Positions 21,224 through 32,490 of a DNA stretch of 32,490 bases are shown here, one piece after another. A program made the translations under genes and the position numbers. The stretch comes from Acidobacteriaceae bacterium (GTDB taxonomy: Bacteria > Acidobacteriota > Terriglobia > Bryobacterales > Bryobacteraceae). The notes beneath the pieces are model-generated. The model worked only from the letters and a program-made list of their open reading frames with translations. It had not been told where the DNA came from and searched no databases. Each line of letters starts with the position of its first letter. The stretch's first letter is position 1. The DNA is taken from positions 1 through 32,490 of the forward strand of contig JAFATG010000118.1 of assembly GCA_019244055.1 (NCBI GenBank). Reading direction: 5' to 3'.

Positions 21224-22810
21224 ATGCAGCGACCTCTGTGGGCGGGCTTCATCCGCTCCGCGGCAGAATTCTCACATCGGCCCGCCATCGTGGCGGAAGG
21301 GATCTCGCTGTCATATAGCGAATTAAACGCTGCCGCGCTCCGCATCGCTTCCACCTTACAATCTCTTCCGAATTACTCCCTGAACCCGCTCACGGCGGTC
21401 TTTGCATATAGGACCCCAACTGCGTTTGCAGGCGTGCTAGGAGCGTTGCTGGCCGGTAACGGTTACGTTCCGCTGAATCGGACGTTCCCCATCGAGCGCA
21501 CGCAGCTCATGTTCGAGCGATCCGACTGCCGCTCCATTGTGGTGGATTCCGGTTCGCTGCCACAGCTAGGCGCGATATTGGATGCCGCTGAGACATCGAT
21601 TCTCGTCCTCTTGCCCGATCTGCCCGAAGTCGAATCGCTTCGACAAAAATGGCCTAGGCACCGCTTTCTCACTTCGTCAGATCTCGTACCCGCGAGCCGT
21701 TGGCGAGAGCCGGTCTTCCTCCCTGATGCGATTGCTTATCTTCTGTTTACTTCCGGGAGCACCGGCGTTCCGAAGGGCGTCATGGTTGCGCACCGAAACG
21801 TTACCTCCTTCCTCGATTACATGGTCGACCGCTATGAGGTTTCCGAGAACGATCGCCTATCGCAGATGTTTGACATGACCTTTGATCTGTCAGTCTTCGA
21901 CATGTTCGTTTCCTGGGAACGCGGAGCCTGCCTGTGCTGTCCTTCTCAAAAGGCTTTGATCGCTCCCGGAAAGTATCTCAGCGAAATGGAGCTGACGGTC
22001 TGGTTTTCCGTTCCATCGACCGCCGTGTTTATGAAGCAGTTGGGAATGTTGAAACCGGGCCGGTATCCATCGCTGCGATATAGCCTGTTCTGCGGCGAAC
22101 CGTTGCCTGTCGCATCCGCCTCCGCCTGGTTGGATGCCGCGCCGAATTCGACATTAGAAAATCTCTACGGTCCCACGGAGTTGACCATCGCTTGCACGCT
22201 CTATCGCTGGGACCCCTTGCGTTCCCCGGGTGAAGCGGAGCTGGGCATTGTTCCCATTGGGTATCCGTATCCCGAAATGAAGGTCATTGTGGCAGATGAA
22301 AACCTGCAAGAAGTCGCGCCGGGACAGGAAGGTGAACTGTTGATGAACGGGCCGCAAATGTCGCTAGGCTACTGGAGGGACCTGGCCAAGACGAAAGCAG
22401 CTTTTGTCGTTCCCGCAAACAAAGATGAGGTTTATTATCGAACCGGCGATCGCGTGCGTCGCCCGATCGGCAACGGTCCTCTCACTCACCTGGGCCGGAT
22501 CGATTTTCAGGTGAAGGTGTTGGGACACCGCGTCGAACTCGGCGAGGTCGAAAGCGCTGTACGGAAAGCGTGTGGATTGGACGGGGTGGTTGCGGTAGGT
22601 TGGCCGGAATCGCCCAGCGGATTCGGCGCTATCGAAGTGTTCATCGAAGGCCCGAAAACAGAACCCGACCGTCTTCGTAAATCCGTTGCTGCCGAACTTC
22701 CCGAATACATGGTGCCCAACAGATTCCATTTCTTGGACCGATTGCCTCGGAACGCAAATGACAAATTTGATCGAAAGGCGATGTCAACCATGTTGCAAGA
22801 AGGCCTGTGA
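21224..22810 (+). CDS. Stand-alone amino-acid adenylation domain (NRPS A-domain-like, AMP-forming)
   Basis: The 528-residue protein is a complete adenylate-forming enzyme of the NRPS A-domain/DltA type. It would activate a carboxylic acid, most likely an amino acid, as acyl-AMP and pass it to a carrier thiol in the cytosol. Core motifs are all present: A3 LFTSGSTGVPKG (about 174-185), A4 FDLSVFDMF (220-228), A5 NLYGPTE (313-319), A7 YRTGDR (405-410), A8 around GRIDFQVKV (424-432) and the A10 Lys514 in NANDKFDRK. No condensation, thiolation or thioesterase domain is attached. Asp221 sits where A-domains bind the substrate amino group, which favours an alpha-amino acid, though the rest of the pocket (hand alignment) matches no code I know. 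The ATG has only a distant GAGG. No intact carrier-protein gene is visible nearby. Confidence 0.85.
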   Translation: MQRPLWAGFIRSAAEFSHRPAIVAEGISLSYSELNAAALRIASTLQSLPNYSLNPLTAVFAYRTPTAFAGVLGALLAGNGYVPLNRTFPIERTQLMFERSDCRSIVVDSGSLPQLGAILDAAETSILVLLPDLPEVESLRQKWPRHRFLTSSDLVPASRWREPVFLPDAIAYLLFTSGSTGVPKGVMVAHRNVTSFLDYMVDRYEVSENDRLSQMFDMTFDLSVFDMFVSWERGACLCCPSQKALIAPGKYLSEMELTVWFSVPSTAVFMKQLGMLKPGRYPSLRYSLFCGEPLPVASASAWLDAAPNSTLENLYGPTELTIACTLYRWDPLRSPGEAELGIVPIGYPYPEMKVIVADENLQEVAPGQEGELLMNGPQMSLGYWRDLAKTKAAFVVPANKDEVYYRTGDRVRRPIGNGPLTHLGRIDFQVKVLGHRVELGEVESAVRKACGLDGVVAVGWPESPSGFGAIEVFIEGPKTEPDRLRKSVAAELPEYMVPNRFHFLDRLPRNANDKFDRKAMSTMLQEGL

Positions 22811-23746: not shown

Positions 23747-25483
23747 ATGGGACTCCCAAAAGACACGTCTATACCCGGCGCAACGCGCTTGGGCGGCCGT
23801 CTCCACGAGACCGTCCTTTTCATGGAAGCGGCGGCTGAGCGCTGTGCGGCATCTAGCGTTCTTGTGGTTAGCGTCTTCACAATCCTATATCTGTTACCTA
23901 CGATACAGTTTGCAGCCCAAAAGATGCTTTGGGTCGACGAATTCTTCACGTTATACCTGTCCACAGTTCCCAACTGGGGTGAACTCCTGCGTGCTCTCGG
24001 CACGGGAGCCGATCAGCACCCACCCAGCTTTTATTACCTGACTCACCTTTGTCTTGAACTGTTCGGCTGTACTCCGGTAACCGTGCGGCTACCTGAAATT
24101 TTTGGATTCTGGTTAATGTGTGTGGCTCTCTATGCCCTCTTTAGACGCCTGCTCCCGCCAATTTGGGGAGTTCTTGCCATGATGCTTCCACTGAGTTCTG
24201 GGGCATACTATTACGGTTCCGAAGCGCGCGGCTACGGTCTCATGCTCGGTTTTTCCGCTTTGGCGCTCTACGCCTGGTTCGAAATCACCGCCGGTCGCAG
24301 GCGCGTGATGTCTTTGGCAGTTCTTGCCGTCAGTTCCGCGGCCGCCGTTGCGAGTCACTATTACGCGGTCATCGCCGTCCTTGCACTCGGAATCGGAGAG
24401 ATTGTCCGTACTATCGTCCGGAAAAAGTTCGATGCGCCGGTTTGGGCGGCTTTCGGTGGCTCCGCTATCCCGCTGCTGGTGTTTGCTTCCACAATTCGCA
24501 CCGCTCGAGAATACTCGGTCCACTTCTGGGCTGTCCCCGTCTGGTCCGAGGTCTTTTCATTTTATGGCATGGAGCCCATCGTTAGGGCGGGACGCGGTCC
24601 GCATCTGTTCGGTTACACGTTGAACGTTCTTCTGGGCTGTATCGGGGTGGCGGTCCTGATTGTGCTTGCTCTTCCTCGTGCTTCTGCTAGCCGTGATACC
24701 AGACGCGCGATAGCCATTCCATGGTTTGCCGCAAGCGCCGTGGCTATGGCGATTGCCCCTGTCTTTACGATGATTCTGGCCAAATTTGTAACCCACGGCT
24801 ATAGCGATCGATATGCGATTGTCGCCGTGATTGGAACAACCGTTTTGATTGTCTACGGCGTCTGTGTCATGGCGCGGCAGCGAACGGCAGTGGCAGCAGC
24901 GGCCATAGTAGTTTGCGGCTTGTGCTTTTACATAAACCAACGGGACTTGAAAATGAATGATCAGTTCTCATGGCGAGGTCTGAAATCCGACTTCCAGTTG
25001 CTTAATGCAACACAGGGCGAACCTGTAGCTGTTTCGGACGGCTTTGCTTTCTACCGTCTCTCGTTCTACTCGCCGCCGGCTATCTATCGGAGATTGACCT
25101 ATGTTGCCGACGCTCATGCGTCTTTAGAGTACTTGCATTCAGACACCCTCGACCGCGGACTATTAGACCTTAGCCCTTGGTTCCCATTGGACGTTGTTCC
25201 TCTTCGTGACTATGTGAGAAATCATGCGTATTTTCTCGTGTTCGGGTATGTCCCCGATCGGAGCTGGTTGATCTATCATCTTCCTGAAATCAGCGTGGAG
25301 ACAAAATTATTGGGACGGCGCGGTGGTAATCTGCTTTTCGCTGTCAAGACTGCAGCTGTTCGCGCGACCGCCGGAGATTCTGAGATTATGGAGAACCGTC
25401 CAGGTTTATCATCCAAGTTCATAAAGAGCGGTCGTTCGCTGTGCGAATTCTATTTCGGCGCTAGCCACTGCCCAGTTCTGTAG
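23747..25483 (+). CDS. GT-C family glycosyltransferase, PMT/ArnT-like integral membrane protein
   Basis: This 578-residue polytopic membrane protein (553 from the ATG at 23822) resembles the PMT_2/ArnT group, which transfers sugars from polyprenyl-phosphate donors to acceptors on the outer face of the inner membrane. The first hydrophobic helix ends in KMLWVDEFFTLYL, the acidic pair expected in the first external loop of GT-C enzymes. QHPPSFYYLTHL follows, then about nine more hydrophobic segments to residue 400 and a soluble C-terminal domain of about 160 residues. The ATG at 23747 lies 5 bp after the GT2 remnant and has no convincing ribosome site. The ATG at 23822 gives an N-terminus closer to the first helix. 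Donor and acceptor are unknown. Confidence 0.75.
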   Translation: MGLPKDTSIPGATRLGGRLHETVLFMEAAAERCAASSVLVVSVFTILYLLPTIQFAAQKMLWVDEFFTLYLSTVPNWGELLRALGTGADQHPPSFYYLTHLCLELFGCTPVTVRLPEIFGFWLMCVALYALFRRLLPPIWGVLAMMLPLSSGAYYYGSEARGYGLMLGFSALALYAWFEITAGRRRVMSLAVLAVSSAAAVASHYYAVIAVLALGIGEIVRTIVRKKFDAPVWAAFGGSAIPLLVFASTIRTAREYSVHFWAVPVWSEVFSFYGMEPIVRAGRGPHLFGYTLNVLLGCIGVAVLIVLALPRASASRDTRRAIAIPWFAASAVAMAIAPVFTMILAKFVTHGYSDRYAIVAVIGTTVLIVYGVCVMARQRTAVAAAAIVVCGLCFYINQRDLKMNDQFSWRGLKSDFQLLNATQGEPVAVSDGFAFYRLSFYSPPAIYRRLTYVADAHASLEYLHSDTLDRGLLDLSPWFPLDVVPLRDYVRNHAYFLVFGYVPDRSWLIYHLPEISVETKLLGRRGGNLLFAVKTAAVRATAGDSEIMENRPGLSSKFIKSGRSLCEFYFGASHCPVL

Positions 25484-26011: not shown

Positions 26012-26294
26012 GCTGACTTCCCACTCGATTCTAAACCACCCCGACGCGGTGAGGAGTAGGTGTATTCCGGTGATCGTGCGTACTATCCGTACCCGATTGC
26101 AACCAACAAGTGTAATGAAGTAAATTTATAGGATTGTTGTGGTGGCGTTCAAGCATTCAGCGGGAACTGCAGCGTTAGCTAAATCTAGGCAGTGTGCTAA
26201 GAGAGTACAAGAAGTAACTCATAAACAAAGAGGGCGATTTACCTCCGACACAGCTTCGTTGCCGTAGTCGCGACACTTTTAACCCGTTGTCGGT

Positions 26295-26299
26295 AAGGA
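26295..26299 (+). promoter_or_regulatory. Ribosome binding site of the methyltransferase-GT2 fusion gene
   Basis: AAGGA lies 8 nt before the ATG at 26308. It selects this codon over the in-frame TTG at 26287. The preceding 280 bp (from 26012) are relatively AT-rich, show no gene that I can support, and probably hold the promoter. Confidence 0.65.
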
Positions 26300-26307
26300 A
26301 TACATTC

Positions 26308-27819
26308 ATGCTTCGGCAAAATTTGCGAGATATGGAGCGAGCGAGAGAGCGATACTGGCGCAGCTATCCGCAGACCTCGCCTGTCAAATTGAGATGGCGC
26401 GCCCTCGCGGTGCGTCACGCTTTCCATGTGCTACCTGGCGAATCCATTTTGGAAATCGGCGCTGGTTCCGGCATCTGGACACGCGAATTACAAAGAGTAT
26501 TTCGAAACGAGAACGAGATAACGGCCGCCATCTTCAATGAGGATCTGGCGGAGTCGAGCCAGTGGGGGTCCATTCCCGGTGTCCATAAACGTTGGACGGA
26601 GAGTTTGGACGATTTGCCATTGGAGACTTTCGACTACGTTATCGGAACCGCCATTCTTTGCCATGATCGGTATCCGGAAATGTTGAAAGCGATTTACCGG
26701 CTTGTAAAACCCGGCGGCCAGATTCTTTTTTTCGAGAACAATTTACTCAATCCACAGGTTTTCGCGAAAACCGCGATACCGGCCGTCAGCCGCTGGACCG
26801 GCAATGCCCGATGTCAGGTAGGTATCAGCAAATACCAGTTCCTACGGATCGCTTCACAGCAGGGATTCGTGAATGTCGAAGTGATTCCATACGATCTTAT
26901 TCATCCCTCTCTGCCGAAATCCCTGATTCCGGTCGTGCAAAGCGTTGCTTTTATGGTTGAGCACGCACCGATCCTCCGCAATTTGTGCGGTACGCTTTAT
27001 CTCTGGGGTCGAAAGCCGGGCGGCTCGAACATCCGTCCCTCCACTAGCCTAGCGACACACGCGATGTTTCATCGCGCCGTCTCTTTTGTGATTCCCTGTC
27101 ACAACGAGGAGCTGAACGTCGGGCCTTTAATTGCCGCCCTTTGCAAACATTTTGAGGATTACATACACGAGATCCTGATTGTGAACGATAACAGTACTGA
27201 CCGCACGGCGGAAGTCACCCGCGGCCTTGCGGCTGGTAATCCGAGAGTACGTTTGATTAATCGGCTGCCTCCCAATGGAGTGGGGCGCGCTTTGCGAGAC
27301 GGCTATCAAGCGGCTACGGGCGCTTACATCCTGACCATGGACAGCGACTTCGTTCAAATCGTTCCGGAGATCCGGGACCTATTTGAGGCCGTGGCGGAAG
27401 GCTATGATGGAGCGATTGGAAGTCGCTTTACCTACGATTCCATCATGATCAATTATTCATTCCCGAAAATCGTTTCGAACCGCCTGTTTCACCTGCTCGC
27501 ACGTTTCGCGCTTCGCTCGAATTTTCATGACATTTCAAACAATTTGAAGCTGTATCGGGCGGATATTCTAAAAAATATAGCCATCCGGCAGGATCATTTC
27601 GCTGCAAATGCTGAAACCGGATTGAAGCCAATCGCCGCTGGTTATCGAGTGAAGGAAGTTCCCGTATCCTGGATTAATCGAACCTTGGAAATGGGCACCT
27701 CCTCATTTCGCATTTTGCAGGTCGGTCCCGGCTACGCGCGCGCTTTGTGGGACGTGATCCGGTCGTCGCGGCAGCTTAAGGATCAAGCCGACAGAAAGGT
27801 GATGCGGGCCGCGGGTTAG
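26308..27819 (+). CDS. Fusion of a SAM-dependent methyltransferase and a GT2 (DPM1-like) glycosyltransferase
   Basis: This 503-residue cytosolic or membrane-associated protein joins two enzymes. Residues 1-230 are a class I methyltransferase with the SAM motif ILEIGAGSG (47-55), FDYVIGTAILCH as motif II region and LVKPGGQILFFENN. A short linker (about 235-255) leads to a GT-A domain from 257 onward: VSFVIPCHNEELNV, ILIVNDNSTDRTAEV, the metal-binding MDSDF with Asp345 and Asp347, then ETGLKPIAAGYRVKEVPVSW and a C-terminus without membrane helices. The GT2 part resembles polyprenyl-phosphate sugar transferases of the DPM1 type, which could supply lipid-linked sugars to the GT-C enzymes beside it. 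A possible combined job is making a methylated glycan or lipid-linked sugar. A broken relative of the GT2 half lies at 23262-23741. Codon use appears ordinary. Confidence 0.85.
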   Translation: MLRQNLRDMERARERYWRSYPQTSPVKLRWRALAVRHAFHVLPGESILEIGAGSGIWTRELQRVFRNENEITAAIFNEDLAESSQWGSIPGVHKRWTESLDDLPLETFDYVIGTAILCHDRYPEMLKAIYRLVKPGGQILFFENNLLNPQVFAKTAIPAVSRWTGNARCQVGISKYQFLRIASQQGFVNVEVIPYDLIHPSLPKSLIPVVQSVAFMVEHAPILRNLCGTLYLWGRKPGGSNIRPSTSLATHAMFHRAVSFVIPCHNEELNVGPLIAALCKHFEDYIHEILIVNDNSTDRTAEVTRGLAAGNPRVRLINRLPPNGVGRALRDGYQAATGAYILTMDSDFVQIVPEIRDLFEAVAEGYDGAIGSRFTYDSIMINYSFPKIVSNRLFHLLARFALRSNFHDISNNLKLYRADILKNIAIRQDHFAANAETGLKPIAAGYRVKEVPVSWINRTLEMGTSSFRILQVGPGYARALWDVIRSSRQLKDQADRKVMRAAG

Positions 27820-27910: not shown

Positions 27911-29272
27911 TCACGAAACGACTTCCACGTGATCGATCCAGCGGGCTTTTCCTAATCGCATCCGTAACTTCACCGCAAAGGTCCAAAAGACGTTGGCGGC
28001 AAGCAGGAACAAGAAGGGCTCTACCGGAAGGCGATAGCGGGGCGAGGCCTGGAGTAGGTAGTAAACGGCTGGATATGCGATAAAAATACCGGCAAATAGC
28101 CAGGCAGATCTCGCCCTTTGCTGGAACAGCAGCACGAGCCCAGCAAGCCCTAAAATGGTCAAAAGAGCTTCGGAGAGCGTCTGCAAAGGCCGTGTCATTC
28201 TAGGCAGCCAAAAAAGCCGAAAGCGCTGTGCAGTTAGCACCAAAAATTCTCGCTTATGAGAACTGATCCACGCCATTGCCTGCTCTCGCTTTGAGCGCAT
28301 ATACGCGACTTCGCCAAGTTGTTTCACTCTGCGTCTTTGAATGGCACGTAATTGAATGACACGTGAATTCTCAATGAAGCATAGGGAAGGATGCACGAGT
28401 GCCCATTGCCACATTGAAAGGTTGCGTTGCATATCGGCGGTCAGCATACCGTTGTTCGATACTTGCATTTCCAACCAAAAATTCGAGCGCGTAAAGATAG
28501 GCGATCCTAGGGCCCTGAGGTTCCGAATCGCCCAAGGCATCACGGGCACGATGTAACATGCGGCGCATGCCCCGCAAAAAACGAGCACCCGGCGGGCGAA
28601 CTGGCGATGCTCGACGGCGATCGCGATCACCCAGGCAGCCACGACTGGAAGAACTACAGGGTTTAGCAGAGAGCCCACGCCAGTGGCCGCACCCAAAACT
28701 GCCCCTTCCCGCATCGCGTATGTGGCTCTAGCCCAGATGCGGCACATCAGAATACACAAGCCGACCAGGGCTGCGGCAGTAAATGCCGCGTCGAAAAAGC
28801 CGCCGGCGGTTTGGTACCCGAAGTTGATTGGCAACAAGGTACCTGCGATTCCCGCGAGCACGCCAGTGATCGGCTTCAGGCGAGCCGCAACCGCAAGGAC
28901 AGGTAAGAGAGCGAAAGCAAGAGAGGATGCCATCGATGTCGCGATCTCCGTGGCCCATGCACCAGCCTTTCCGGTACCCAAAAAACGAACGAGAACGCTC
29001 AATAGCAACGGATGCAGCGGTGCGCAATGCGCTGTCGGGCCGGTTGCGGCGCCATACGCGTCTGCGTACCTTCCCGTGGTTGCGAGCGAGATTGCAATTC
29101 GAACGGGCTCGTCCATCCCGCCGAGCCCGTTGCGGTAATCTAGCTGCCGGAAGACCAAAGCCTTGGGGGTATCTGGATCGAGGGAAACCAAGAGTAGCCT
29201 GACCGCCAAGCCCAGGAAAAAGAGAAAGGCTGAAATGATAACGAGTCTATGCCGAAGCACTGCATTTCGCAT
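27911..29272 (-). CDS. GT-C family glycosyltransferase, PMT_2/GT39-like (tandem copy 1)
   Basis: From the ATG at 29272 this membrane protein has 453 residues with about ten hydrophobic segments. The first is LVIISAFLFFLGLAVRLLLV. The external loop carries GGMDEPVRIAISLATTGRYADAYG and TAHCAPLHPLLLS, the pattern of polyprenyl-phosphate-dependent GT-C transferases, with Asp-Glu in the expected loop. The C-terminal part includes FWLPRMTRPLQTL and YRLPVEPFLFLLAAN. The frame is open to 29335, but its paralogue aligns from the same internal Met, so I prefer 29272. Neither start has a good ribosome site. It is closely related to the next gene upstream, lies 139 bp after it on the same strand, and is convergent with the fusion gene. 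Confidence 0.78.
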   Translation of the reverse strand: MRNAVLRHRLVIISAFLFFLGLAVRLLLVSLDPDTPKALVFRQLDYRNGLGGMDEPVRIAISLATTGRYADAYGAATGPTAHCAPLHPLLLSVLVRFLGTGKAGAWATEIATSMASSLAFALLPVLAVAARLKPITGVLAGIAGTLLPINFGYQTAGGFFDAAFTAAALVGLCILMCRIWARATYAMREGAVLGAATGVGSLLNPVVLPVVAAWVIAIAVEHRQFARRVLVFCGACAACYIVPVMPWAIRNLRALGSPIFTRSNFWLEMQVSNNGMLTADMQRNLSMWQWALVHPSLCFIENSRVIQLRAIQRRRVKQLGEVAYMRSKREQAMAWISSHKREFLVLTAQRFRLFWLPRMTRPLQTLSEALLTILGLAGLVLLFQQRARSAWLFAGIFIAYPAVYYLLQASPRYRLPVEPFLFLLAANVFWTFAVKLRMRLGKARWIDHVEVVS

Positions 29273-29308
29273 GATTTTGGTAGGCGCTATCGTCAACACG
29301 GGATTGAC

Positions 29309-29326
29309 GTGTCTAACGATAGACAC
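29309..29326. promoter_or_regulatory. Perfect 7-bp inverted repeat upstream of GT-C copy 1
   Basis: GTGTCTA-ACGA-TAGACAC has 7-bp arms around a 4-nt loop and lies 37 bp before the ATG at 29272. It has no T-tract, so it looks more like an operator or leader hairpin than a terminator. If the longer reading frame is real, it would lie inside codons 4-9. Confidence 0.4.
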
Positions 29327-29411
29327 AGACTCCATATTAAAAAAGTTTCCAAGGCCACCGCTCTACTGGGCGGCGTTCTGGCCGCGAAACAACGATCCCG
29401 CCTTTCAACTG

Positions 29412-30710
29412 TTACGGCGTCGACGCGCCCGAAAAAGCCTCCACGTTACGCGCATGACGCTCTCGCAGCTGTACCCGCGAATTTGCCGTAAAAGTCCAAA
29501 CGAGGTGCGCGGCAAGCAGGAACAAGAAGGGCTCTATTGGAAGCCGATACCGGGGCGAGACCTGGATGATGTAGTAAACGGCTGGATATGCGACGAAAAT
29601 ACCGGCAAATAGCCAGGCAGATCTCGCCCTTTGCCGGAACAACAGCACCAACCCACCCAGCCCTAAAATGGTCAACAGAGCTTCCAGGAGCGTCTGCAAA
29701 GGCCGTGTCATTCGAGGAAGCCAAAAAAGCCGAACACGCTCGGCGGTCAGCACCAAGAATTTCCGCTTGTGGCCACCGACCCATGCTATCGCCTCCCGTC
29801 GCTTCAAGCGCATGTACGCGACCTCGCCGAGTTTTTTCACTTTAGCCTTCTCGACTGCACCTAGGTAGGGATGTACAAGCGCGAATTCTGGCATGCGCTC
29901 GTTGCGTTCCTCATCAGCAGTTAACCAATCGTTATTTGAAACGTGCATTTCTAACCAGAAATTAGACCGCGTCCAGATGAGCGATCCCAGGACCCTGAGG
30001 TTTCGAACGGCCCAGGGCGTTAGTGTCCAAATCAAGCACGCGGCGCAGGCTCCCCAAAGGAGGAGCACCTGTCGCGCTCGGCGACGATTCTCGACAGCAA
30101 TGGTGATCAGCCACGCCGCCAGCACCGGAAGAATCGCAGGATTCAGCAGAGAGCCTAGCCCAGCGGCTGTGCCCAAAATCACGCCTTCCCGCATCGTCAA
30201 AGTGCCTCTCGCCCATATGCGGCAAACCAGAATGCATAAACCGACTAGCACTACGGCTGTAAATGGCGCATCGAAAACTCCGCTGGTTTGGGGCCAGAAA
30301 TTGAAGGGCAGCACAGCGCCTGCGGCTCCCGCCAACACGCCTGCTATCGGGTTTAGACCGCTCGCAAACGCAAGCAGCGGCAGTAGAGCGAACACGAGAG
30401 CCGACCCCGTTGACGCCGCGACCTTTATCGAAAACCTGCCAGCCTCATTAGTTCCGAAAATCCGTAATAAACCACTCAGTAGCAATGGATGCAGAGGCGC
30501 GCAATGCGCGGTCGGTCCGACCCCGGTACCATACGCATCTGCGTACTTTCCCGTGGTGGCGAGCGAGATCGCGATCTTGACCGGTTCTGGGGGAGCCTCT
30601 GGTTCGGTGTGCAGCAATACCAGCAGGAGCAACCTGACCGCCAAGCCAAGAAAAAAAACGACAGTCGCCGGGATGATTATTCGCCTATGGCCGAACAATT
30701 TATCTTGCAT
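29412..30710 (-). CDS. GT-C family glycosyltransferase, PMT_2/GT39-like (tandem copy 2)
   Basis: This 432-residue membrane protein is a close paralogue of copy 1, with the shared stretches PTAHCAPLHPLLLS, FWLPRMTRPLQTL, ARSAWLFAGIF and YRLPIEPFLFLLAA. Long runs are nearly identical in DNA as well, so the duplication is fairly recent. The first external loop is shorter by about 15 residues and reads APPEPVKIAISL. It keeps the Glu but lacks the Asp found in copy 1, so activity or specificity may differ. The Met at 30710 corresponds to the proposed start of copy 1; the frame is open to 30773. The gene is divergent from the GNAT-like gene across roughly 150 bp and would be transcribed ahead of copy 1, possibly together with it. 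Confidence 0.77.
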   Translation of the reverse strand: MQDKLFGHRRIIIPATVVFFLGLAVRLLLLVLLHTEPEAPPEPVKIAISLATTGKYADAYGTGVGPTAHCAPLHPLLLSGLLRIFGTNEAGRFSIKVAASTGSALVFALLPLLAFASGLNPIAGVLAGAAGAVLPFNFWPQTSGVFDAPFTAVVLVGLCILVCRIWARGTLTMREGVILGTAAGLGSLLNPAILPVLAAWLITIAVENRRRARQVLLLWGACAACLIWTLTPWAVRNLRVLGSLIWTRSNFWLEMHVSNNDWLTADEERNERMPEFALVHPYLGAVEKAKVKKLGEVAYMRLKRREAIAWVGGHKRKFLVLTAERVRLFWLPRMTRPLQTLLEALLTILGLGGLVLLFRQRARSAWLFAGIFVAYPAVYYIIQVSPRYRLPIEPFLFLLAAHLVWTFTANSRVQLRERHARNVEAFSGASTP

Positions 30711-30868
30711 GTCTCGCTGGAGATGCGCACTACGGCCTATTCGCCTGACGCGCCGCACTAAATCCAGATCCACATCGGTCTAAAAATGTTTCCATTCCAA
30801 CTGCCTGTATATCCTGCTCATGTCGTCAGCGGCTCTCCCGAATGTGCAAAATGCGAAGATTCGTTTGA

Positions 30869-31912
30869 ATGGCACGGCCACACCCATCTCAATCAGGAAA
30901 AGAGCAGAGTGCTCTATTGTCCGATGATACGCGGCGAATTGATCGGGCTACACCCGCCATCGACAACTTTCGGGGAGATTACGCCAACCTGGCTGCGTTG
31001 ATACAAAAATCTTGGTCTGAAAATAACCGCCAGCCGCTCCTCTATACGCCTGATTTTCTCAAGTCTTTGTTTGAGTATCCCGAAGCGTCTTTTTCGCTGG
31101 CTCCTACGCTCTATACAGGAACGAATCCCATTGCCTTCTCCGCTGGTTTGCCTCGTCGCATGCGATTCAGAGGGCGGGATATCCGCGTCGTTACCAGCAC
31201 GCTCCTTACCGTCTCGCCCGAATCCAAGAAGCATGGATACGGAATCGTTCTTTGGAGTGAATTAGTCAAGCGGGCTCGAGCCGCCGGCTTCGATGGAATG
31301 CTGAACTTCTGCATTGATGGGGAGCCGATGAACGGAATGATTGTCGGTTGCGCGCGCAGACTGAACCTCCCGATTGAGCGCATATTCTCCGCGCACTACA
31401 GTTCAGTCCTATTGAGGCCCGCTGGATCTCGGGAACCAACCCCAGATAGCGACAATGGGAGTGTGGAGGAACTCCTGCGCTTAGCTGCCCCGCTCAGTGA
31501 TAGCGTGCCGCTCGGTCGATTATGGAGTGCTGAGGAAGCCCAGTGGCAGTGCATGCACAGGGCGGGCGCTATCACAGCCCGGCACACGGCAGGATCTCGA
31601 TCGGGCATGCTGACCGGGTACGTCATGGAGGTCGATAGACCAGACCGCGCCCAGTGCCTGCTCGTTGAAGATGTGTTGTGGGGTACTCTCACGGCTGACG
31701 AGCGCCTCTACTTACTGCGAAAGCTGCTGCATCGAGCTGCTGCATCCGGTGTTCGCATGGCGACCGTTCCCGATCTTCATTACGCCGACATGCAACCATT
31801 CACAGTCGCTGGGTTTCGGTCTTCGAAACGAATCCTGCACGCATATCTGACAATTTGGAACGGGGACGCGCTCACCGAGCCTCTCCCCTCCATCTACTTG
31901 GATGTATTTTGA
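30869..31912 (+). CDS. GNAT-fold acyltransferase-like protein
   Basis: This 347-residue soluble protein contains a region (about 30-180) with the look of a GNAT N-acyltransferase: VVTSTLLTVSPESKKHGYG followed by a helix IVLWSELVKRARAAGF matches the acyl-CoA-binding strand-turn-helix. FDGMLNFCIDGEPMNGMIV follows. The C-terminal half (about 190-347) may be a second, degenerate GNAT-like unit (LRKLLHRAAASGVRMATVPDL). The cofactor and substrate are not known. The N-terminal 20 residues are polar and poorly structured, so the real start may lie at a TTG at 30917. The ATG has no ribosome site. Only 50 bp separate it from the FkbH-like gene, and the two are probably cotranscribed. FkbH-type proteins in other systems often carry or accompany GNAT modules. 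Confidence 0.55.
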   Translation: MARPHPSQSGKEQSALLSDDTRRIDRATPAIDNFRGDYANLAALIQKSWSENNRQPLLYTPDFLKSLFEYPEASFSLAPTLYTGTNPIAFSAGLPRRMRFRGRDIRVVTSTLLTVSPESKKHGYGIVLWSELVKRARAAGFDGMLNFCIDGEPMNGMIVGCARRLNLPIERIFSAHYSSVLLRPAGSREPTPDSDNGSVEELLRLAAPLSDSVPLGRLWSAEEAQWQCMHRAGAITARHTAGSRSGMLTGYVMEVDRPDRAQCLLVEDVLWGTLTADERLYLLRKLLHRAAASGVRMATVPDLHYADMQPFTVAGFRSSKRILHAYLTIWNGDALTEPLPSIYLDVF

Positions 31913-31962
31913 TCAGCCGCTTGCCGAGTGCATGGATCGCGTGAGTTAATGGATGACATCGA

Positions 31963-32490
31963 GTGAACCTGATTGATGCCTTAGAGCTCCTCAAGCAGGC
32001 TGTTCCCGAGAACTCTCAATTGTTCCGCGTATTTCTGGCCTGTGGCTTCACCCCGCTACACGCTAAAACATTCCTTGCCGCTCACTTGAGAAAATGCTTT
32101 CCTTACCGGCGGGTTCAAATAGAAACGGGTATTTTTGGCGATCTCGCGGGCACTCTAGAGGGCCTTGCCGCTGGAAACTTGGATGCGGTCGCTGTACTGA
32201 TTGAGTGGAGTGATCTGGATGCTCGCTTGGGAATTCGCAGTTTGGGCGGATGGCATCAGGCTAACCTGCCCGACATCGTTGACTGTTCAACCCGAATGGC
32301 TCGGCGCGTCGAGGATTCGCTCATTCGGATCTCTCGCGCCGTTCCGGTCATCTGCTGCCTACCCGCCCTGCCCTTGCCGCCTCTGTTTCCATCGCGTCCC
32401 GAGCAAAGCAGCCAGTCTGAACTCCAGCTTCACCGGTTGATAGCCTCGGTTGCGGTATCGCGTTCTGAACCACCTGGAATGCGACTACTA
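31963..32490 (+). CDS. FkbH-like HAD-IIIC superfamily protein, N-terminal part (runs off the window)
   Basis: The frame opens at a GTG and is still open at the window edge, giving 176 residues. It matches the N-terminal domain of FkbH-type HAD-IIIC proteins: LACGFTPLHAKTFLAAHLR, the ETGIFGDLAGTLEGL segment, VLIEWSDLDARLGIRSLGGW, a Cys-Leu-Pro region and the PALPLPPLF segment. In polyketide clusters FkbH dephosphorylates 1,3-bisphosphoglycerate and loads the glyceryl unit onto a carrier protein. Relatives in other clusters probably do similar carrier chemistry. The HAD catalytic DxD motif lies beyond the edge, so phosphatase activity cannot be confirmed here. The GTG overlaps the stop of a 5-codon ATG frame by 2 nt. 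In-frame upstream codons hit a stop at once, so the start cannot be earlier. Confidence 0.7.
   Translation, partial: MNLIDALELLKQAVPENSQLFRVFLACGFTPLHAKTFLAAHLRKCFPYRRVQIETGIFGDLAGTLEGLAAGNLDAVAVLIEWSDLDARLGIRSLGGWHQANLPDIVDCSTRMARRVEDSLIRISRAVPVICCLPALPLPPLFPSRPEQSSQSELQLHRLIASVAVSRSEPPGMRLL

Follow-up and report, generated by a model that had tools for sequence, protein, structure and literature searches.

A gene at the end of a contig of a soil-dwelling Acidobacteriaceae bacterium (Bryobacteraceae) was assigned, by sequence profiles and a predicted fold, to a bacterial relative of N-myristoyltransferase (NMT). The gene behind it codes for an FkbH-type protein and is followed, on the continuing contig, by stand-alone carrier proteins and a polysaccharide deacetylase. 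Together, these genes would form a module that N-acylates a surface glycan or glycolipid with groups bound to carrier proteins; we see an even chance for this reading.

The gene pair and the continuing contig

The window, i.e. the whole stretch of 32,490 nucleotides that was analysed, is the entire contig C358 of genome G000, and the contig end falls inside the FkbH-type gene. The NMT-like tandem-GNAT acyltransferase gene (30869..31912, plus strand) codes for 347 amino acids with the C-terminal end ...IYLDVF. After a spacing of 50 bp, the N-terminal 176 codons of the FkbH-type protein follow on the plus strand (31963..32490), open at the contig end. From the window sequence alone, Pfam and NCBIfam searches at E 0.1 matched neither gene of the pair. 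Both identities came via relatives: FkbH through the continuation on contig C122 of the same genome (G000:C122, L057:3-1220), and GNAT, weakly also NMT, through the relatives of the first gene. The complete FkbH protein of the related locus L035 was searched against the whole genome, which has a completeness of 96.7 %, and yielded two matches at E 1 or better: residues 34-211 matched the window end and residues 213-609 the first bases of C122. The ends of C358 and C122 have 8 bases in common, one of them mismatched, and the reading frame is kept; the contig join rests on this overlap, and the window fragment and the start of C122 were taken as one FkbH gene. The joined translation contained one surplus residue at the seam, visible as a gap in the alignment to L039.

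The C122 part of the FkbH protein scored 214.9 bits on TIGR01686 (curated cut-off 146.65); the relatives in L035 and L038 reached 210.0 and 217.4 bits. It contains an intact HAD motif, DLDDT, and also the SCR motif. Thus, a missing HAD site was ruled out. The pattern [DN]xDxT[LIVM]W was present in 20 of 23 FkbH rows, L057 included, a count that excludes the window fragment, whose sequence stops before the motif; the strict pattern was unmatched in L045, L051 and L053. The initial annotation, made from the sequence alone, had recognized a GNAT-like and an FkbH-like gene 50 bp apart and had named the HAD DxDxT motif and a carrier protein as features to look for past position 32490. Coordinates, gap and FkbH type were confirmed, and C122 provided the motif as well as two stand-alone carrier proteins directly behind FkbH.

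Carrier protein 1 (L057:1213-1470, plus strand; WDSL; PP-binding 27.8 bits, cut-off 20.8) is stand-alone, lies directly 3' of the FkbH gene and is by its position a candidate FkbH partner. Carrier protein 2 (L057:1454-1804; VDSL), a polysaccharide deacetylase (L057:1817-2860) and an unnamed protein of 314 amino acids (L057:2860-3804) follow in this order, all on the plus strand, and from carrier protein 1 onwards the genes overlap or are 12 bases apart. The cluster ends after the unnamed protein. The genes that come next code for a Na/H exchanger, on the minus strand, and then for GcpE, a TIR protein, a desaturase, two-component proteins and others. The TIR-domain protein is located at L057:8265-9866. 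For the unnamed protein, the L057 member had no Pfam or NCBIfam match, a five-row profile of the family gave no match in PDB, and a single-sequence fold of the L061 relative had a pLDDT of 35.7. In all five members, the one on C122 and those at L061:974-1915, L043:11621-12409, L063:1420-2262 and L064:1501-2463, a polysaccharide deacetylase was found within 3 kb of the gene.

Upstream of the pair, the plus strand codes for a stand-alone adenylation domain of the aminoacyl-carrier-protein ligase type (21224..22810) and, as glycan context, for a PMT_2-type membrane glycosyltransferase (23747..25483) and a methyltransferase fused to a GT2 glycosyltransferase (26287..27819), the latter 3 kb from the pair. 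The adenylation domain scored over the cut-offs for AMP-binding (222.8 bits, cut-off 29.9) and for its C-terminal domain (28.8 bits, cut-off 24.5) and just below that of TIGR01733 (310.8 bits, cut-off 317.4). It is located 8 kb from the pair, and two minus-strand genes intervene. These paralogues (27911..29335, without Pfam family; 29412..30773, without Pfam family over the cut-off) are membrane-spanning as judged by eye and were considered as context only. They directly adjoin the pair, so the earlier description as "next to glycosyltransferases" applies to the fusion gene at 3 kb and the PMT_2-type gene, not to the immediate neighbours. A short open frame at 23475-23741 matches part of the methyltransferase-GT2 gene and is perhaps the remnant of a duplicate. 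The remaining scanned genes of the window were housekeeping or unrelated genes (Lon, ClpA/B-type AAA, trypsin-PDZ, MFS, glutamate synthase, dihydroxy-acid dehydratase and others).

The non-polyketide setting recognized in the initial annotation was corroborated. A PF00109 ketosynthase was found neither on C358 nor on C122, and among the scanned genes of the window and C122 there was no FabH-like gene, no glyceryl-ACP dehydrogenase and no PKS/NRPS module, save the stand-alone adenylation domain, which that annotation had missed. A polyketide cluster past the window end was ruled out, as C122 carries the carriers and the deacetylase and no PKS/NRPS cluster. Genome-wide, two PF00109 ketoacyl synthases (open frames of 434 and 435 aa) were detected on C26 and C333 and one condensation-domain match on C186. 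Metabolite clusters typically combine a stand-alone adenylation domain with carriers and FkbH, which counts for a small soluble metabolite as product, e.g., an N-acyl amino acid or an acylated amine, with the glycan genes as mere neighbours. FkbH together with a carrier is indeed described for metabolite pathways (PMC7489565). However, the condensation domain and the PF00109 matches all lie off C358 and C122, the polysaccharide deacetylase is part of the tightly spaced run, and flippases and other glycan genes stand beside the relatives; a soluble product is improbable in our view. Glycan acylation is the best reading because the HAD motif is intact and the downstream contig lacks a PKS/NRPS cluster. 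The acyl or glyceryl decoration of a surface glycan or lipid, suggested initially, thus gained partial support from the carriers, the deacetylase and the contents of C122; the acyl group and the acceptor we infer.

Kinship of the first gene product with N-myristoyltransferase

NMT is known from eukaryotes: animals, fungi and parasites. A five-row alignment of the first gene product and its relatives was searched against 396 genomes of the phylum and matched in 10, its own included. The corresponding profile had NMT as best match in PDB (E 1.8e-4). With eight divergent proteins from these genomes added, the 13-row profile matched NMT with a best E of 4.8e-13, and 44 of the 45 PDB sequences at E 0.1 or better were NMT; the reported stretches ended short of the C-terminus. 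The divergent eight alone matched NMT at E 6.9e-7. The 13-row set excludes L079, which aligned poorly and has a different end, and also the gene at L035:6999-7958, which is GNAT-like (E 3e-4) and the second of its kind in that locus. The divergent eight have 17-23 % identity to the first five. The 13 relatives are not independent, since members are closely alike: the similarity was 43-91 % within the divergent eight (six proteins at 64-91 % or 43-68 %) and 39-52 % within the first five. Divergent NMT-like tandem-GNAT proteins occur in other Acidobacteriota (L081-L088), seven of these eight ending in Y-E-[VI]-Q-[IV], and divergent genes share one gene order in five genomes. Stretches around the divergent eight had no match to a carrier or FkbH; therefore, the carrier link is limited to the branch of the window.

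The Pfam families recognized the kinship below their cut-offs: NMT matched in 4 of the 13 members (best E 1.2e-4; 22.4 bits, cut-off 25) and NMT_C in 5 of 13 (best E 0.019), and the window protein matched neither at E 1. Acetyltransf_6, a FemABX-type family, was found in one of the 13 members (E 0.017), and NodA was not among the Pfam families matched by them. Pfam NMT gave no match in 297 genomes of the phylum, nor in 14 controls or the own genome.

An AlphaFold2 model from the sequences of the window and L058-L061 consisted of two adjacent GNAT halves (pLDDT 64.8, pTM 0.68), with residues 321-329 and 331-347 below a pLDDT of 50. The best 50 Foldseek matches listed were all NMT entries, with a best E of 1.3e-12; FemABX and other tandem GNATs were not among these 50, and a kinship to them may still exist. 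In the first row of VIA-align 2, 302 residues of an NMT were aligned with Z 24.4, an rmsd of 3.6 and 13 % identity. The GNAT assignment of the initial annotation was thus correct, with two GNAT halves and relatives that score as GNAT, but the kinship with NMT had escaped it.

The enzymes nearest in fold and profile, the NMTs, act on peptides, and this would suit a protein N-acyltransferase in the strict NMT sense with a protein N-terminus or a lysine as acceptor. With identities to NMT of only 11-17 % in the listed structural rows and with glycan and carrier-protein genes as neighbours, we consider a protein acceptor very improbable.

The structural alignment extended to model residue 347, the last one, in all 50 listed rows, and the rows of human NMT reached residue 496; this end of the model is under a pLDDT of 50. 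Given the middling confidence of the model and the values under 50 in its C-terminal stretches, the structural pairing of the last residue carries little weight of its own. In the sequence alignment, the chain ended at one position in 13 of 13 bacterial relatives, while the chain ends spread over 5-18 residues in 23 FkbH proteins, 10-25 in six deacetylases and 1-10 in nine VOC proteins. On the sequence level, a fixed chain end is what a catalytic role of the C-terminal carboxylate would lead one to expect. The chain of human NMT1 ends with residue 496, whose C-terminal carboxylate has been described as the catalytic base (PMC7048800). According to the same source, a variant shortened by two C-terminal residues retained its kcat and used Glu244 as base instead, so the C-terminus is not strictly required even in human NMT1. 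A catalytic C-terminal carboxylate is called unique to NMT among GNATs in a review (PMC4964394).

FkbH loci in related genomes

Of 150 genomes of the family, 31 had a match to the FkbH part and 4 to the first gene; both counts include the own genome. Twenty stretches were drawn from matching genomes, and 19 contained FkbH. Together with L057 and with L067 and L068, which were found via the unnamed protein and are thus biased towards this protein and the deacetylase, 22 FkbH loci were available; most examined stretches had a length of 14-20 kb. In 21 of these 22 loci of related Acidobacteriota, a carrier protein was located at most 2.5 kb from FkbH; L048 has none, and a chance pairing of FkbH and carrier was ruled out. 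All 23 carrier matches in FkbH loci fell within this distance, the one at L050 being weak (E 2.7e-4). The seeds of the carrier profile originated from 6 of the 22 loci, and 15 of the 16 remaining loci have a carrier. Leave-one-out recovered 6 of 8 seeds; the two missed were the carrier of L067 (L063:37-363) and the first of the L035 carriers. Pfam identifies this L035 carrier as PP-binding (47.6 bits); for the L067 carrier the evidence consists of its own seed and inspection by eye.

Other genes within 2.5 kb of FkbH in the 22 loci coded for glyoxalase-type VOC proteins (10 loci), deacetylases (8) and the unnamed protein (4). The VOC gene near FkbH is methylmalonyl-CoA epimerase-like, e.g., L036:8555-8998. 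An NMT-like gene was located within 2.5 kb of FkbH in L035 and L036; the pair of window and C122 is split across two contigs. Genomes G032 and G128 have both pair genes within one FkbH-carrier-GNAT run. For FkbH and the NMT-like gene, the case for a pairing beyond chance rests on the window, L035 and L036. In 18 of the 22 loci the NMT-like gene was absent from the stretch examined; genome G002 has it on another contig. As this partner is rare (4/150) and missing in these 18 loci, FkbH and its carrier must in most cases rely on a different acyltransferase.

The gene orders of the relatives bear on the acyl donor. In L036, FkbH is followed by a carrier, the NMT-like gene and a VOC gene. L035 has the order flippase, second GNAT-like gene, carrier, amino acid:carrier ligase-like gene, FkbH, carrier, NMT-like gene. 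The section 5' of FkbH (L035:6999-9444) comprises the second GNAT-like gene, a carrier and a seryl-tRNA-synthetase-like gene with similarity to amino acid:[carrier protein] ligase. L067 starts with a carrier, a deacetylase and the unnamed protein before FkbH, and continues with asparagine synthase, flippase, Wzy_C and a glycosyltransferase. In L037, the unnamed protein lies between an adenylation domain and the NMT-like gene. L060 contains an adenylation-domain end, a carrier of type 2, the NMT-like gene, GT2, polysaccharide pyruvyl transferase and a flippase; the flippases of L060 and L067 were tested with Pfam. The L060 carrier has 52 % identity to carrier protein 2 over 88 residues and no Pfam match at E 0.001. 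L060 is a 5.7 kb contig of a metagenome-assembled genome named Nitrospira. Among 295 genomes of that phylum, the NMT-like gene was present in one, the source of L060 itself; therefore, the contig is perhaps wrongly binned or the result of a transfer. No FkbH was found in this genome by a search without positive control.

These orders would also fit an NMT-like enzyme that moves an amino acid from a carrier charged by the adenylation domain, comparable to FemX with the carrier replacing the tRNA; FkbH and carrier protein 1 would then supply a different enzyme with acyl groups, perhaps the unnamed protein of 314 amino acids. Such a division of labour would be in line with L060 and L037, where adenylation domains accompany the NMT-like gene, and with the ligase-like gene in the L035 run, which scored 163 bits, below its cut-off of 357. 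The window adenylation domain has 46 % identity each to its homologue in G002, which is cut by a contig end and has the genes of the unnamed protein and the NMT-like enzyme behind it, and to that in G128, which sits on another contig. Its pocket residues, which we take to be D L F F L C L I A from a hand alignment to the PheA numbering, are identical at all nine positions in L037, a further point for an aminoacyl donor; the G128 domain differs at one position (Q for L). In contrast, the NMT-like gene of L036 stands directly behind FkbH and carrier, and that genome encodes its closest adenylation domain on a different contig, next to a separate carrier-like gene (profile E 3.5e-4). We regard the transfer of an amino acid with FkbH serving another enzyme as rather unlikely. 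For the acyl group of the NMT-like enzyme itself, L036 favours the FkbH product, L060 and L037 favour an amino acid.

A putative N-acylation module among known systems

In the preferred reading, the N-acylation module, the FkbH protein would load a three-carbon acyl unit, glycerate from 1,3-bisphosphoglycerate, on carrier protein 1, by analogy with the FkbH proteins of polyketide pathways. The stand-alone adenylation domain would activate an amino acid for a carrier protein. The N-terminal GNAT half of the NMT-like enzyme may bind the phosphopantetheine thioester, and its own C-terminal carboxylate may act as base when the acyl group is handed to a primary amine. Such an amine would be exposed on an N-acetyl sugar by the deacetylase whose gene follows those of the carriers. 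A glycan acceptor is suggested by this deacetylase, with deacetylases near FkbH in 8 of 22 loci, and by the polysaccharide genes beside the relatives, i.e. the flippase in L035, GT2, pyruvyl transferase and flippase in L060, and flippase, Wzy_C and glycosyltransferase in L067. A wider proposal we advance tentatively, as falling somewhat short of an even chance: NMT-type enzymes with an active-site C-terminal carboxylate exist in bacteria, namely Acidobacteriota, and one branch N-acylates surface sugars, using carrier thioesters that FkbH and a stand-alone adenylation domain provide. If true, the eukaryotic protein N-myristoyltransferase shares ancestry with bacterial acyltransferases, and the genes are a candidate pathway for N-glyceroyl sugars, whose gene was elusive in one species according to a 2018 paper (PMC6120980). 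The module makes testable which genes place glycerate or other small acids on amino groups of bacterial surface sugars, and the bacterial NMT relatives provide a second setting in which to study the unusual use that a protein makes of its own C-terminus.

Partial likenesses exist to several systems. The FkbH glyceryl-carrier-protein synthases of tetronate and methoxymalonyl-ACP pathways (PMC7489565) have in common the FkbH score over the cut-off, the HAD motif and the stand-alone carrier directly behind. Unlike these pathways, the locus is without PKS, FabH-like gene and glyceryl-ACP dehydrogenase among the scanned genes, and a polysaccharide deacetylase lies downstream instead. The use of FkbH chemistry on a glycan, deemed unusual in the initial annotation, has a partial precedent in Campylobacter jejuni, where the flagellar glycan locus contains cj1302, a gene with an fkbH domain (PMC7099621). 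The pseudaminic acid of C. jejuni NCTC 11168 carries di-O-methylglyceric acid (PMC3068675). This likeness is one of description, an FkbH gene in a glycan locus and a glycan with a glycerate derivative; a link from cj1302 to the glycerate group is not stated in the accessible text of both papers. The glycan of Tannerella forsythia contains N-glyceroyl on pseudaminic acid, with a candidate gene elusive as of 2018 (PMC6120980). An N-glyceroyl sugar is thus a real bacterial structure, and the two cases are alike by the proposed chemistry alone. FemABX proteins share the two GNAT halves and a primary-amine acceptor at the cell surface, but use aminoacyl-tRNA as donor, and FemX is said to use no protein-borne base (PMC4964394). 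In the literature searched, no report tied FkbH to O-antigen or to capsular polysaccharide and an acetyltransferase. A bacterial N-myristoyltransferase was not reported in the titles and starts of abstracts of a literature mostly without subscription journals.

The rhizobial NodB, NodA and NodF proteins, i.e. deacetylase, N-acyltransferase and carrier protein, are encoded together. They represent the same trio of functions as the module, but differ by a long acyl chain and a chitin oligomer. With the eukaryotic glycylpeptide N-tetradecanoyltransferase, NMT, the window enzyme shares the two GNAT halves, the profile match, the full-length fold match and a fixed chain end that pairs with the NMT end in a low-confidence part of the model. 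It differs in being bacterial, in scoring below the Pfam cut-offs and in being encoded with carrier proteins, and its acceptor is probably not a peptide.
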